From Candidatus Fermentibacterales bacterium (GTDB lineage: Bacteria > Fermentibacterota > Fermentibacteria > Fermentibacterales > JAFGKQ01): DNA of 9,518 nt. Positions 3,055 to 9,518 of this stretch are shown one piece after another. Where the stretch lies: positions 1 to 9,518 of the forward strand of contig JAFGKQ010000021.1 of assembly GCA_016928495.1 (NCBI GenBank). The letters are read 5' to 3'. The position numbers were made by a program, and so were the translations under genes. The notes under the pieces were generated by a model. The model was not told the DNA's origin. It saw only the letters and a program-made list of their open reading frames with translations, and searched no databases. Position 1 is the first letter of the stretch. Each line of letters starts with the position of its first letter.

Positions 3055-5022
3055 CTACCTCAGAACCGTGACCCTGGCCGAGGCCATCGAGGTCTCGGAG
3101 GTCAGCCTGAGGAAGTAGACGCCTGGCGTCAGCCTGGAGACATCCCAGGCAAAGGTCTGGGTCCCCGAGATCTCTCCCTCGAACGGGGTCTCGACCAGCC
3201 GGCCGCTGATGTCGAAGACCGAAAGCTGGACGCTGCCCTGGCCGGCGAGCCCGAGCACTGCGCTGGAGACCACCGGGTTGGCCGAGAGCACGGCCACGGC
3301 CAGAGGCGAGCCGTCGGGCGCCCAGGGCTCGTCATCCTCGATCCCGGTCAGGCCCCAGATCCTCATGGCCAGGGACGGGTCGCCCATCAGGTTGTAGCCC
3401 TCGTAGTAGTACTTCGTGCTGCCGCCGCCGCCGTAGTACTCGTAGACGGCCAGCTTGCCGCCGTTGAGGAAGCCCATCGGCCAGTAGACCAGCGAGCCCC
3501 AGAACCACGCGAACTCGCCCTTCTGCTGGATGTCGTCCTCGTCCCAGTAGGTGGACGGGTCAGATCCCCAGAACCAGATGGCGCCCTTGCCGGGGGTTCT
3601 GGTCCAGGTCTCGCACCATCCGGTGTCCGTGTTGTAGCTGCCGGTAAGACAGGCGTGCGACAGCACGCCGGGCAGCATGTCGTCGTTGTTGAGCTGCGCG
3701 AAGTTGCCCGAGCTGAAGGGCATGTCGCCCCACGACGTCTCCGAGCCGTGACCCGAGAAGGTCAGCATCGAGAGGCCCGCGTTGACAGAGGCTACCACAT
3801 CCGAGGCGTCGGCCCCGTAGGTGTGCCTGTAGAGCTTGTCGGCATCGTAGCCCAGCGGGTCGCCGAAATTGCTGATGCAGTAGTTGTGGGTGCCCTCGGA
3901 GATTTGCCAGTTGTCCTCGCTGGCTATCCAGCCGCTGCCCTGGATCCAGGGAGCGCTGGCGCTGACCTGCTCGTACCAGATCACCCTGTCGCACATCAGC
4001 TCGAGTTGGGAGCCGATCTGTACGCTGAACCTGCCCAGGAAGGCATCGGGCTGGTAGCCACCGTCGTCCAGGCACACGTAGTAGAGGTCCGTGACACCGC
4101 TGTAGGTGGTCGGAGAATAGCCCGGCAGGTAGCCCGTGTCGCCCACCAGGAGCACGTAGACCGGGGGATCGGGCCAGTTCGCGATGGCGTCGATGATGTA
4201 GTCCCTGATCTGGGTGGCCGAGCTTCCGGTCTCGGTGAGGTCCACCAGAGTCACGTCGAAGCCCTGGCTCTCCTTCCAGGTTATGAAGCCGTCGAGCATG
4301 GTCGACGCGAAATCCTGATGGGAGACTATGAGGTAGGGCGCGGGCGGGGTATCCCAGCCCGGGTCCTCGAACGTGCCGTAGTTGGCAAGCAGCTCGGAGA
4401 GCATGGTCTCGAAGCCTGCCGCCATCAGGCGCCCGGCCTGGTAGTAGGTCTCGCCGAGGTCTCCGCCCACGAACCGCACATCGATGCTGGCGCTGTTCAG
4501 AATCTGCATCGAACCGTCGGACGGATTCCATCTGACCGACATCACCTCGACGAGGATCAGGTTCCTTCCCCTCATCATGCCTGCCTCGACGGCGCGGACC
4601 CAGGCCCGGGGATAGGCCTGCCCCTGCTCGTACACCGCAGGGTCGAAACCCATGGTGTACTCGGACCTGGGGCGGTCCTTGGTTGCGGACTGGATGCCGG
4701 GCTCCACTGCGTACGGCACCGTGTTGCCGGGTAGGCAGGTCATCCTGTTGACGGTGACGTCGAACTCGACACTTGCGCCGATGGGGGCCTCCAGCCAGAC
4801 CCTGTAGACGGGCAGCCTGGGCAGGGAGAACTCGGCCAGGTTCTCGACGCCCGGAATGCTGACCCGGGAGTAGATCTCTCCCTTGTGCCAGACCTCGGTG
4901 ACGTCGGGGTTGGGGGAGCTCAGCTCGAGCCTCACGCCAGCCTGGTCGGAGGAGACCATCCCCAGGCCCGAAGCCAGCGCCAGACCGGCAAGCCCCAGGA
5001 CAAGAAACGCGCATGTCCTCAC
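3055..5022 (-). CDS. Secreted C25 (gingipain-like) cysteine peptidase with T9SS sorting domain
   Basis: The 655-residue product begins with a signal peptide (MRTCAFLVLGLAGLALAS). A propeptide-like region follows to about 220, containing FSLPRLPVYRVWLEAP, then a C25 caspase-fold peptidase domain at about 228-556. The likely catalytic pair is visible: His425 in SGHGSETSWG and Cys458 in SHACLTGSYN. The domain closes with NLMGDPSLAMRIW (544-556), typical of the family. The last about 80 residues (NP...FDISGRLVETPF...W DVSRLTPGVYFLRL) match the pattern of a T9SS type A sorting domain, implying export across the outer membrane and surface anchoring or release. The start is GTG at 5022: GGAGG at 5030-5034 gives a 7-nt spacer and the signal peptide follows at once. 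A longer reading to 5118 would put the promoter inside the gene. It is monocistronic. Substrate unknown. Confidence 0.9.
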   Translation of the reverse strand: MRTCAFLVLGLAGLALASGLGMVSSDQAGVRLELSSPNPDVTEVWHKGEIYSRVSIPGVENLAEFSLPRLPVYRVWLEAPIGASVEFDVTVNRMTCLPGNTVPYAVEPGIQSATKDRPRSEYTMGFDPAVYEQGQAYPRAWVRAVEAGMMRGRNLILVEVMSVRWNPSDGSMQILNSASIDVRFVGGDLGETYYQAGRLMAAGFETMLSELLANYGTFEDPGWDTPPAPYLIVSHQDFASTMLDGFITWKESQGFDVTLVDLTETGSSATQIRDYIIDAIANWPDPPVYVLLVGDTGYLPGYSPTTYSGVTDLYYVCLDDGGYQPDAFLGRFSVQIGSQLELMCDRVIWYEQVSASAPWIQGSGWIASEDNWQISEGTHNYCISNFGDPLGYDADKLYRHTYGADASDVVASVNAGLSMLTFSGHGSETSWGDMPFSSGNFAQLNNDDMLPGVLSHACLTGSYNTDTGWCETWTRTPGKGAIWFWGSDPSTYWDEDDIQQKGEFAWFWGSLVYWPMGFLNGGKLAVYEYYGGGGSTKYYYEGYNLMGDPSLAMRIWGLTGIEDDEPWAPDGSPLAVAVLSANPVVSSAVLGLAGQGSVQLSVFDISGRLVETPFEGEISGTQTFAWDVSRLTPGVYFLRLTSETSMASARVTVLR

Positions 5023-5071
5023 TACGGCACCTCCAGACGGAATGCACCTTTGGCTGCTATCATACGAATTC

Positions 5072-5100
5072 AGTATAAGAACAATGCCCTTCCGGCACAA
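5072..5100 (-). promoter_or_regulatory. Sigma-70-like promoter of the C25 peptidase gene
   Basis: On the minus strand a -35-like TTGTGC (5095-5100) and a -10 TATACT (5072-5077) are separated by exactly 17 nt. Transcription would begin near 5065, giving a leader of about 43 nt with GGAGG before the GTG at 5022. This supports the short start over one at 5118. Confidence 0.55.
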
Positions 5101-5309
5101 TGTCCCGGGCGGAGCCAACCGCGCCGGCTGCTTGCCTCCCTGCGCCGCACACAGGAAGCCCGGCGAGGCTTCCCCGGTTCCCCTCCCCGCACCGGACCGG
5201 ACTCACCTGAGTTGCCTCGAGCGGGCGCCAGGACACATCCTTCCGGTGTCTACCCGCAGGCGTGAGCCCTCTCGAACAACCTGCCCGGCTTCAAGCACGG
5301 GCATGACCA
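5101..5309. other. Divergent intergenic region, no gene seen
   Basis: The gap between the divergent peptidase and UPF0016 genes is 300 nt (5023-5322). Its left part holds the peptidase leader and promoter. The rest is GC-rich with no coding signal I trust: short open frames here lack a ribosome binding site and have proline/arginine-rich, non-protein-like composition. No clear promoter for the rightward gene was found. A small hairpin lies at 5283-5302. Confidence 0.5.
5283..5302 (+). repeat. Hairpin in the leader of the UPF0016 gene
   Basis: GCCCGGCT and AGC(A)CGGGC can form an 8-bp stem with one bulged A and a 3-nt loop (TCA). It ends 7 nt before the GGGAG ribosome binding site of the gene starting at 5323. 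It could affect access to that site or mark a processed 5' end, but no known riboswitch shape is recognised. Confidence 0.35.
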
Positions 5310-6819: not shown

Positions 6820-7221
6820 TTGAGAGGCTACCAGAAGCTGCTCGTCTGGAAGGAAGCCATGGCCATGGCGAGGACGATGTACATCCTCGTCAGGGCGTTT
6901 CCGAAGGACGAGCAGAGCGCTCTCGGGCAGGAGCTCCGCCACGCGGCGCTGATGGTCCCCTACAACATCGCCAGGGGGCATCAGCGCAGAAGGGCGGGAG
7001 ACCTCCTCAGATGCGTCATCGCCGCCCTGGACTCGGCGGCGGAGATAGAGACGCTGCTGATCCTGAGCAGCGAGCTGGGCTACATCTCTGTGCCCGAGCT
7101 CAAGGACGCCCAGACCGCCCTGGACGAGGTCGTCCAGAACCTCGAGGGCATGCGCGCCGCCCTGAGCGCCAAAGCCAATGATCCGAAGAGGGAGAGGCGC
7201 ACGGGGCAGGCCGAGGTCTAG
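6820..7221 (+). CDS. S23/four-helix-bundle protein (23S rRNA intervening-sequence protein family)
   Basis: The 133-residue product begins YQKLLVWKEAMAMARTMYIL, the signature opening of the four-helix-bundle (S23, intervening-sequence protein) family. It continues with FPKDEQSALGQELRHAALMVPYNIARG and a helix around residues 60-85 (DLLRCVIAALDSAAEIETLL). The family takes its name from proteins encoded inside intervening sequences of 23S rRNA in spirochaetes and others, but many genomes carry stand-alone copies whose role is unknown. No rRNA sequence flanks it here. The TTG start at 6820 is supported by AAGGAGG (6808-6814) with a 5-nt spacer. The last about 15 residues are basic and slightly longer than usual. 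Its stop overlaps the stop of the convergent gene at 7218. Confidence 0.88.
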   Translation: MRGYQKLLVWKEAMAMARTMYILVRAFPKDEQSALGQELRHAALMVPYNIARGHQRRRAGDLLRCVIAALDSAAEIETLLILSSELGYISVPELKDAQTALDEVVQNLEGMRAALSAKANDPKRERRTGQAEV

Positions 7222-8132
7222 TCGCGGAGCCTCTCCTCGAGGTCCCTCATGGTCTCCTCGATCTCCCTGCGGTACTGCTCGATCTGCTCGAGAGTCCGGA
7301 GCTGCTCCTCCGTCCTCTCGAAGCCCCCGCTTCTCGGCCTGTAGAGCGGGCCCAGGACGAACTCCAGCCCGACCGTGAACTTCACGTGCCGCATCACGTC
7401 CGTCGAATCGTAGTCCTCGCTCGAGGAGGCCATCAGCTCCTCGATCTCGGCTACAGCCGCCTGGACCCTCACGTGATCGCCGAACTGGTACTGGGCCCCG
7501 AGGTTGAGGTCCCTGCTGTCGTACTCCAGATACGCCTCGGCAGGGCCGAAGGACCAGGACATCGAGCCGAACAGGCCGGTCGCGGGATTCGTCGCTGCTT
7601 CAGGGTCCTCCTGCTCGTCCTCCCAGAAGCGGCCGATCCCGTAGCCCAGGCTGACCGAGACGGGCTGCCCGGTGAGGTAGCCCACGTTCTTGGTGAGGAC
7701 CAGGTAGGCCGAGAAGGTCTGGTTCCTTCCGTTGCTGTATAGCCTGTCCTCGGGCCCCCCACGGAAGAACTCGTAGTCCTCCTCGGTCGTGATGTTCTGA
7801 ACCCCTATGGCGATGCCGGGCCTCGCGTAGGTCTCGCTCAACGGCAACAGCCTGAGGTGAGCCGAGAGCCCCGCCTCGCCCAGGTAGCAGAGCCCGGCCT
7901 GGGCCCACCCGAAGAGCCCGCAGTCGAGATGGCCCGCCAGGGCGAAGTCGTCCTCGGTCGACCCGTCCGGGTTGGAGTAGGAGAACATCGTGAAGCAGGT
8001 CCCGAACATCAGCTCGGTATGCTCGAGCACGGTCGCGGTTGGTGTGTCTATCAGGCCGTCCCTGGCGAACGGCAGAGACCCGGCGTGCAGGGCGACTGCG
8101 ACAAGCAGCAGGACCAGAGGGAGGGGTCTCAT
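7218..8132 (-). CDS. Predicted outer-membrane beta-barrel protein with helical tail, paralogue B
   Basis: The 304-residue product has a signal peptide (cleavage near LHA-GSLPF) followed by alternating, aromatic-rich short strands typical of an outer-membrane barrel. The mature start (GLIDTPTATVLEHTE, 26-40) recalls the opening of YjbH-like barrels, but I cannot assign the family. Conserved with its neighbour are NIT-x-EEDYEFFR (113-124), SLGYGIGRF (161-169), RDLNLG (207-212) and TDVM...VKF. The last strand-like segment ends at about GPLY (261-264). Residues about 274-304 form a charged heptad-like helix (ERTEEQLRTLEQIEQYRREI), probably a coiled coil. The ATG at 8132 has no good Shine-Dalgarno and lies 13 nt after the stop of paralogue A, so the two are probably co-transcribed and perhaps coupled. 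Function unknown. Confidence 0.72.
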   Translation of the reverse strand: MRPLPLVLLLVAVALHAGSLPFARDGLIDTPTATVLEHTELMFGTCFTMFSYSNPDGSTEDDFALAGHLDCGLFGWAQAGLCYLGEAGLSAHLRLLPLSETYARPGIAIGVQNITTEEDYEFFRGGPEDRLYSNGRNQTFSAYLVLTKNVGYLTGQPVSVSLGYGIGRFWEDEQEDPEAATNPATGLFGSMSWSFGPAEAYLEYDSRDLNLGAQYQFGDHVRVQAAVAEIEELMASSSEDYDSTDVMRHVKFTVGLEFVLGPLYRPRSGGFERTEEQLRTLEQIEQYRREIEETMRDLEERLRD

Positions 8133-8145
8133 CGCCGGGCCATGC

Positions 8146-9081
8146 CTAGTCCATCATGTCTTCCAGCTCTTCGATCTCCCGCTGGGCGTTGCGCCTGTAC
8201 TCCTCCAGCTGCCGGAGGGCCTCCTCGTCCCCCCTCCGCGGGGTCAGCCTCTCGGTCGGGTCGAGATGGGTGGTCCCGAAGAAGGGCCCTATCGTCACCT
8301 CGACGCCCAGGCCGAACTTCACGTTCTGCATCACGTCCGTGGCGTCGTGCATGTCGCTTGCAGCGGACCTGATCATCTGCTCGAGCTCGGCAACGGCGAA
8401 CATGGCTGACACGTACCTGCTGAACTCGTACTCCACGCCCAGGTTCAGGTCGCGCCCGTCCCACTCGGCCAGCACGTCGATGTCCTGCCCCGGCCGGAAA
8501 TCCACCGAGAGGAACAGCCCGCTCAGGGGGTTAGAGAACCCGTCGCTCTCGGCATCGCTGGCCTGCCGGAAGCGGCCGATCCCGTAGCCCAGGCTGACAG
8601 AGGCGGGAATGCTGCAGAGGTAGAACAGGTCCTTGCTGACCACGACGTAGGCCGACCAGTTCTGGGCCTCGCCGTACACGTACAGGGAGTCTTCGTCATC
8701 CCTGAAGAACTCGTAGTCCTCCTCGGGGGTGATGTTCTCCATGCCCACGGATATGCCGGGGCGCTTTACGCTCTCGCGGAGCACCAGGACCCTGGCGCTG
8801 CCGGAGATGCCCCCGCTGTTGAGGTAGGTGACGCCCAGCTGGACCCTGTTGAACAGGCCGAAGTCGACGTGCCCGCCCACGGCGAAGTCGGTCTCGCTCG
8901 AGCTGCTCGCGCTGTCCCCGACCTCGTAGGAGAAGACCGTGAACGAGCCCCCTGCCTTGATCTCGGTGTGCTCGAGAACGTCCGCGACCGGGGCATCTAT
9001 GAGCCCCTCGCGGCAGTAAGGCAGGGACCCGGCCATGGCCAGACCGGCGACAAGCCCTAGAAGCAGCCCGACGATCCTCAA
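8146..9081 (-). CDS. Predicted outer-membrane beta-barrel protein with helical tail, paralogue A
   Basis: The 311-residue product resembles the downstream gene along its whole length, at roughly 40-50% identity by eye. It has a signal peptide (cleavage near AMA-GSLPY), then GLIDAPVADVLEHTE (26-40), NITPEEDYEFFR (116-127), SVSLGYGIGRF (161-171), WDGRDLNLG (207-215) and a last strand-like segment ending near GPFF (265-268). A charged helical tail (about 285-311, EEALRQLEEYRRNAQREIEE) follows. The start is TTG at 9079-9081, with GGAGGG (9088-9093) and a 6-nt spacer. It is first of the leftward pair and divergent from the oxidoreductase at 9233. A good -35-like TTGACC lies at 9143-9148 on the minus strand, but no convincing -10 follows. 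Probable outer-membrane location; role unknown. Confidence 0.74.
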   Translation of the reverse strand: MRIVGLLLGLVAGLAMAGSLPYCREGLIDAPVADVLEHTEIKAGGSFTVFSYEVGDSASSSSETDFAVGGHVDFGLFNRVQLGVTYLNSGGISGSARVLVLRESVKRPGISVGMENITPEEDYEFFRDDEDSLYVYGEAQNWSAYVVVSKDLFYLCSIPASVSLGYGIGRFRQASDAESDGFSNPLSGLFLSVDFRPGQDIDVLAEWDGRDLNLGVEYEFSRYVSAMFAVAELEQMIRSAASDMHDATDVMQNVKFGLGVEVTIGPFFGTTHLDPTERLTPRRGDEEALRQLEEYRRNAQREIEELEDMMD

Positions 9082-9174
9082 GATGCGCCCTCCAGACCGG
9101 GTGACGACACTGGTTAGCTACATTTCTCTATTGCTCTCCACCGGTCAAGAGAGCCCCGGGGACAGGGCCCCGTT

Positions 9175-9202
9175 TTGCACTTCGCCTCCATGAAGGTACA
9201 TT
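9175..9202 (+). promoter_or_regulatory. Weak candidate promoter of the oxidoreductase gene
   Basis: TTGCAC (9175-9180) and TACATT (9197-9202) are 16 nt apart, in the 151-nt divergent gap. Matches to consensus are modest (3 and 4 of 6). Transcription would start near 9209, just ahead of GGAGG at 9223-9227. Confidence 0.3.
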
Positions 9203-9232
9203 TGGCAGAACCTTCTCCTTCCGGAGGACGTC

Positions 9233-9518
9233 GTGAGAATACTAACTCAGCGCATGAGGGATGGTTCCGTGACCGTCACGGAGGCCCCCTCGCCCTCGCT
9301 GGAGCCCGGCTCAGTCAGAGTGCGGACCATCCACTCTGCCGTCAGCCCCGGGACGGAGGGCGGCAAGATCGTGGTCGGCAGGAAGTCGCTGCTCGGCAAG
9401 GCCAGGGCCAAGCCCCAGCAGGTCAGGCAGACCCTGGACATGGTGAGGAGCCTGGGGCTGGTCGCCACCATCCGCAAGGTCAGGTCCAAGCTCGAGGGTG
9501 CGGAACCTCTTGGCTACA
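9233..9518 (+). CDS. Bi-domain oxidoreductase (Zn-ADH-like plus Gfo/Idh/MocA), N-terminal part
   Basis: The gene runs off the window; 95 residues are visible. They match the opening of the bi-domain oxidoreductase family: a GroES-like alcohol-dehydrogenase start with EPGSVRVRTIHSAVSPGTE (24-42), then the family's distinctive insert KSLLGKARAKPQQVRQTLD (51-69), LGLVATIRKVRSKLE and PLGY (92-95). The full protein would be about 700 residues, with a Gfo/Idh/MocA NAD(P)-binding half after the ADH half. Members commonly lie in polysaccharide gene clusters beside heparinase-like or glycosyltransferase genes, but the reaction is not established. The GTG at 9233 has GGAGG (9223-9227) with a 5-nt spacer. 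The downstream half cannot be checked here. Confidence 0.85.
   Translation, partial: MRILTQRMRDGSVTVTEAPSPSLEPGSVRVRTIHSAVSPGTEGGKIVVGRKSLLGKARAKPQQVRQTLDMVRSLGLVATIRKVRSKLEGAEPLGY

Follow-up and report, generated by a model that had tools for sequence, protein, structure and literature searches.

What does a tandem pair of secreted barrel proteins do when its genes lie among unrelated neighbors, and to which family do the proteins belong? The pair is found in the window, the whole stretch of DNA analyzed here, which is an entire 9518-base contig (G000:C57) of a 2.3-Mb draft genome that is about 81% complete. The initial annotation had described two adjacent genes 13 nt apart within positions 7218-9081, and both open reading frames are present there on the minus strand. 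Gene A (8146-9081, minus strand), the first of the pair, encodes a secreted protein of 311 aa and begins at a TTG codon, with a GGAGGG motif about 6 nt upstream. Gene B (7218-8132, minus strand) encodes a secreted protein of 304 aa from an ATG start and is a fast-evolving paralogue of A. The 13-nt spacer (8133-8145, minus strand), read directly from the sequence, is consistent with co-transcription; no terminator-like sites were found in 7000-9518, and a promoter scan was likewise empty. At its 3' end, gene B overlaps a convergent 23S-rRNA-IVP-like gene by 4 bp (window 7218-7221). The other genes of the contig encode this 23S-rRNA-IVP-like four-helix protein, a GDP-mannose 4,6-dehydratase (gmd), a GDT1-like transporter, a C25 peptidase, and a DUF1015 protein, and the gene divergent from A is truncated by the contig end. 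The C25 (gingipain-type) peptidase at window 3055-5118 carries a type IX secretion (T9SS) sorting tail, which suggests a T9SS in the host genome.

The likeness of A and B is beyond chance, since BLASTP aligns them over 302 aa with 46% identity and 64% positives (246 bits, E 2e-85), and the blocks VLEHTE, EEDYEFFR, SLGYGIGRF, and RDLNLG are identical between the two; they are paralogues, as the initial annotation had proposed. Its assignment of both proteins to the outer-membrane barrels agrees with the predicted structures. AlphaFold2 models built from a 54-sequence alignment give each protein a barrel of 12 strands and, after it, a C-terminal helix (gene A: pLDDT 80.4, pTM 0.74; gene B: pLDDT 83.0, pTM 0.75). 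By DSSP on these models, the 12 predicted strands span residues 41-264 of A (8290-8961, minus strand) and residues 41-260 of B (7353-8012, minus strand), and hydrophobic and polar positions alternate in most strands. Ahead of strand 1 is the most conserved part of the family, residues 18-40 of A (GSLPYCREGLIDAPVADVLEHTE; 8962-9030, minus strand), the counterpart of the YjbH segment "GLLQTPTAR"; the equivalent pre-barrel segment of B is residues 18-40 (8013-8081, minus strand). Past the last strand, the predicted C-terminal helix comprises residues 284-310 of A (8152-8232, minus strand) and residues 270-303 of B (7224-7325, minus strand). The helix of A would face the periplasm, given a periplasmic N-terminus, and the same assumption, together with strand order rather than a membrane calculation, sets the outer and inner sides of the loops. 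In the models, VLEHTE precedes the barrel and EEDYEFFR is within a long outer loop, so that the shared blocks are not simply barrel strands.

The closest solved structures are KdgM, the COG4313 channel, and FapF (Z 15-17), with NanC also among the best matches (Z 14-17 overall); this ranking is that of VIA-align, and Foldseek TM-scores are low (0.2-0.4). Three of these matches (KdgM, the COG4313 channel, and NanC), together with the single polar face of most strands, are what A and B would present as general diffusion or substrate-specific porins of the KdgM/NanC or COG4313 kind, with the tandem duplication yielding two substrate ranges. Yet the fold shared with KdgM, COG4313, and FapF carries no functional proof, similarity of this sort being common ground among 12-stranded barrels. 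The extra C-terminal helix and the conserved N-terminal segment are atypical of simple porins, no uptake genes or carbohydrate-use operon adjoin the pair, and the outer loops are not unusually variable. A porin function is considered unlikely.

The constraint on the loops bears on a further claim of the initial annotation, in which strands were held in place while surface loops drifted. Identity between A and B falls from 74% ahead of strand 1 to 51% in the strands, 41-44% in the outer loops, 33% in the inner turns, and 26% in the C-terminal region; the difference between strands and outer loops is not significant (permutation p 0.19). Family-wide entropy is low in the pre-strand-1 segment and equal in strands and outer loops (1.36 in each). 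The dN/dS values from 14 pairs of close orthologues are 0.042 in the pre-barrel segment, 0.098 in the strands, 0.090 in the outer loops, 0.116 in the turns, and 0.088 in the C-terminal region. All parts of the protein are under purifying selection, the loops are no freer than the strands, and the picture of conserved strands with drifting loops is rejected on all three measures. The truly divergent region between A and B is the C-terminal linker and helix.

The initial annotation could not name the family, and a name can now be given: sequence profiles identify the A/B proteins as homologues of the N-terminal barrel of YjbH and GfcD. Gene B passes the cut-off of the Pfam YjbH model PF06082 (25.6 bits; cut-off 24), A has no match, and the other members shown individually score under the cut-off; the model matches 28 of 37 family members at E ≤1 (best 1.4e-8). 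No NCBIfam model matches at E 10. When hhalign compares the family profile with E. coli YjbH and GfcD aligned with six relatives, the match has E 4.6e-13 (probability 97.9) and is confined to YjbH residues 37-261, the N-terminal barrel. A B-first alignment gives 4.2e-13 against YjbH/GfcD. In control reruns, the N-half alone scored 4.9e-13 and the C-half 0.21, whereas 30 column-shuffled N-halves reached 0.013 or worse and the reversed N-half 0.034. The identity claim rests on the YjbH/GfcD alignment because single sequences score weaker against the family (GfcD alone, E 0.0072; YjbH alone, 8.4e-5). The match ends at A residue 230, leaving the C-terminal helix of A outside it. In YjbH proper, one chain of about 700 residues holds two barrels as well as a periplasmic domain (PMC9603273, PMC11494523); A and B are stand-alone YjbH-N-type barrels and not the two-barrel YjbH proper.

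Relatives of the pair were not found by single-sequence patterns; an alignment-based search recovered 59 loci. The nearest named relatives are in Candidatus Fermentibacteria (Aegiribacteria, Sabulitectum, Hyd24-12). The host is thus an uncultured relative within or near this group, and the window genome is the sole member of its family (f1) in the searched set. Most genomes of the order have a class A gene, orthologous to gene A (44-55% identity to A), and a class C gene, a third paralogue with about 40% identity to A; the two are on separate contigs or far apart. The neighbors of class A genes differ by genus (e.g., a DHH phosphoesterase and an NAD-epimerase are downstream in Sabulitectum-type genomes, and other genes elsewhere). 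Gene B is an addition found in the window genome, and its own orthologue was not found in other genomes. A search for the tandem pair, as the initial annotation had suggested, found no second genome with two full-length adjacent copies in the searched set, which rules out a tandem conserved across the order; fragments in G015, G024, G031, and G041 resemble genes that are broken or run off a contig edge.

The duplication appears old rather than recent, as had been supposed: the end branch of B is 0.94 substitutions per column, twice that of A. The trees are compatible both with an ancient origin and with one inside the window lineage. In the maximum-likelihood tree, B falls outside the class A clade (support 97-100) on this long branch, but the AU test does not reject a sister pairing of A and B (p-AU 0.378). 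Two runs of identical codons are shared by A and B, one encoding VSLGYGIGRF (10 codons) and one EDYEFFR (7 codons). Both exceed the length expected from shuffling codon identity across the identical residues, with p 0.013 for the longest run and p 0.0015 for both together. The runs may reflect local gene conversion, but as a post hoc observation this is only a hint. In the window they pair 7626-7655 with 8569-8598 and 7761-7781 with 8701-8721.

Homology to YjbH-N would fit plain polysaccharide-export or capsule-handling barrels that, like YjbH and GfcD, serve an OPX/Wzz pathway and involve no motor. In the distant homologue L204 (L204:8400-11865), genes of the OPX (Poly_export, SLBB) and Wzz/tyrosine-kinase-like kinds stand immediately before that for a single YjbH-type barrel, and the gene ends overlap; this run is counted in favor of a polymer link for the family, and in L203 a weakly Wzz-like ATPase is encoded a few genes from the barrel. 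The gmd gene in the window and a polysaccharide sugar-nucleotide enzyme gene (by-eye reading) preceding the class A gene of L087 point the same way. However, the homologous half is the N-barrel, and the literature assigns polymer export to the C-barrel (PMC9603273, PMC11494523). The host OPX genes are on other contigs (C15 and C248), with no family member beside them; A and B show no linkage to yjbEFG/gfcABC or OPX genes, their neighbors being other genes; and class C is tied to a motor operon instead. Export or capsule handling of this plain kind is regarded as doubtful.

The motor operon is defined by class C. In every class C locus with a readable next gene (31 of 31), that gene encodes a giant TPR protein and is nearly always within 20 bp; L120, one further locus in the class C count, is class A by its neighbors. 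Past the TPR gene, where the contig is long enough, are genes for a small secreted protein, an ExbB (PF01618, E 1.6e-26), two ExbD proteins, and a protein with a TonB_C/AgmX-PglI-type tail. The tail match is below NCBIfam's own cut-off, and the N-terminal part of this TonB-like protein is FHA-like by eye, although Pfam reported no FHA domain. In the window genome, the class C operon, which is conserved throughout the order, is at L033:727-10474 on contig C78, with genes nearly touching or overlapping; the ExbB genes of the host are on contigs C61, C53, and C78. The full gene order is repeated in family f33 (L040, L208), where the barrel of a further locus, L209, was located by genome search at G218:C127:32104-33021. 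The order also occurs in family f143 (L200, L201), whose giant TPR protein is a different one (about 1950 residues), and in more distant lineages the barrel adjoins TPR genes in L196-L199 and L203. The combination of TPR protein and ExbB-ExbD-ExbD-TonB motor is beside the class C paralogue only and is absent beside the window pair, whose contig has neither motor nor OPX genes.

Architectures with more than one domain also occur among the distant relatives. Two barrel copies are fused in a single 513-aa chain in L206:758-2299 (residues 54-217 and 320-483). In TA06 and WOR-3 homologues (L143:1800-3428, L144:7821-9458), a YjbH-N-like barrel domain is within longer proteins, and that of L143 continues into carboxypeptidase-regulatory-like and TPR domains.

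The class C TPR protein matches YbgF/CpoB and BamD models, which, with the charged C-terminal helix and the near-universal presence of the family in the order, would suit proteins with a structural or assembly role in the outer membrane, anchoring TPR or BAM-like complexes and transporting nothing. Pfam scans of A and B, however, show no peptidoglycan-binding or other anchoring domain, and a role of this purely structural kind is quite unlikely.

For A and B themselves, sequence comparison and structure prediction point to a secretion signal, a 12-stranded barrel, YjbH-N homology, an old duplication, and purifying selection. The reading favored here, held tentatively, is that these YjbH/GfcD-N-type barrels are outer-membrane outlets or anchors of envelope-spanning complexes that handle surface polymer. 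Three known features of Myxococcus xanthus enter into this preference. The Agl-Glt/Nfs core combines TPR proteins with AglR (ExbB), AglQ and AglS (ExbD), and GltG, in which FHA and TonB domains are present (PMC3169522); the adjacent paralogues GltA and GltB, both outer-membrane barrels, stabilize one another and also bind GltC, a TPR protein (PMC4488436); and Agl-Nfs moves glycan across the spore surface or spore coat (PMC3858216). The outlet or anchor reading is favored because the class C operon has the core parts of Agl-Glt/Nfs, GltA/GltB bind GltC, and Agl-Nfs moves glycan. Against it, A and B adjoin neither a motor nor an OPX gene, and class A neighbors vary between genera.

In the favored outlet or anchor arrangement, each barrel would be in the outer membrane with the conserved N-terminal segment in or under it, and the C-terminal helix would project into the periplasm and dock an envelope-spanning partner. 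The barrel, as outlet or anchor for a surface polymer, would hand force or polymer between periplasm and surface. The class C barrel probably has as its partner the giant TPR protein whose gene is directly downstream, a pairing that would connect the barrel to the ExbB-ExbD-ExbD-TonB-like proton motor in the manner of Agl-Glt/Nfs. Any link between the motor and the window pair would be carried over, by analogy, from the class C paralogue only; A and B may be motor-unlinked versions that serve as alternative barrels for the class C machine or work alone. Alternatively, A and B may form a two-barrel unit, as within one YjbH or GfcD chain; by analogy, YjbH/GfcD and the fused L206 protein suggest that two barrels of this type can work as one unit. 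It may also be that A and B are simply channels for polymers or solutes.

The window pair alone is an ordinary result, and greater interest attaches to the motor operon of its paralogue, outside the window. The pair, formerly unnamed, now represents single-barrel relatives of one YjbH/GfcD half, a simpler handle on the role of the N-terminal barrel in capsule proteins. The class C paralogue ties YjbH-type barrels to proton-motor/TPR operons in several lineages, and the widespread Agl-Glt core complex, present also where no gliding is known, gains a testable outer-membrane component.

Three known systems provide the closest comparisons. FapF, the Pseudomonas functional amyloid exporter, to which the YjbH/GfcD N-half has been linked earlier (PMC9603273), shares the 12-stranded barrel with A and B (Z 15-17 over about 190 residues), and its sequence match is not significant (phmmer E 0.4, single-sequence query). 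In contrast to FapF, the helix of A and B is C-terminal, no helical plug domain is seen before strand 1, and no fap genes are seen. The N-barrel of YjbH/GfcD (E. coli GfcD residues 19-278) is homologous across nearly the whole barrel, has 12 strands and a signal peptide, and has the same G-L-x-(D/Q)-x-P-T-A segment ahead of the barrel. The differences are that A and B are single barrels of 304-311 aa rather than two barrels with a periplasmic domain, have an extra C-terminal helix, and are without GfcABC or OPX genes alongside. Like GltA/GltB and NfsA/NfsB, A and B are adjacent paralogous outer-membrane barrels, a likeness of arrangement; M. xanthus GltA/B, in contrast, are described with an OmpA-like domain (PMC4488436), and the window pair is outside a motor operon. 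It is the class C operon that resembles the Myxococcus Agl-Glt/Nfs core, through its TPR protein, ExbB, two ExbD proteins, and protein with a TonB/AgmX-PglI tail. A broader proposal, somewhat doubtful at present, is that the family supplies the outer-membrane subunit, a barrel of YjbH type, to a proton-driven surface machine resembling Agl-Glt/Nfs in several uncultured lineages, and that the window duplication gives this machine, or a motor-free offshoot, a barrel pair like GltA/GltB.
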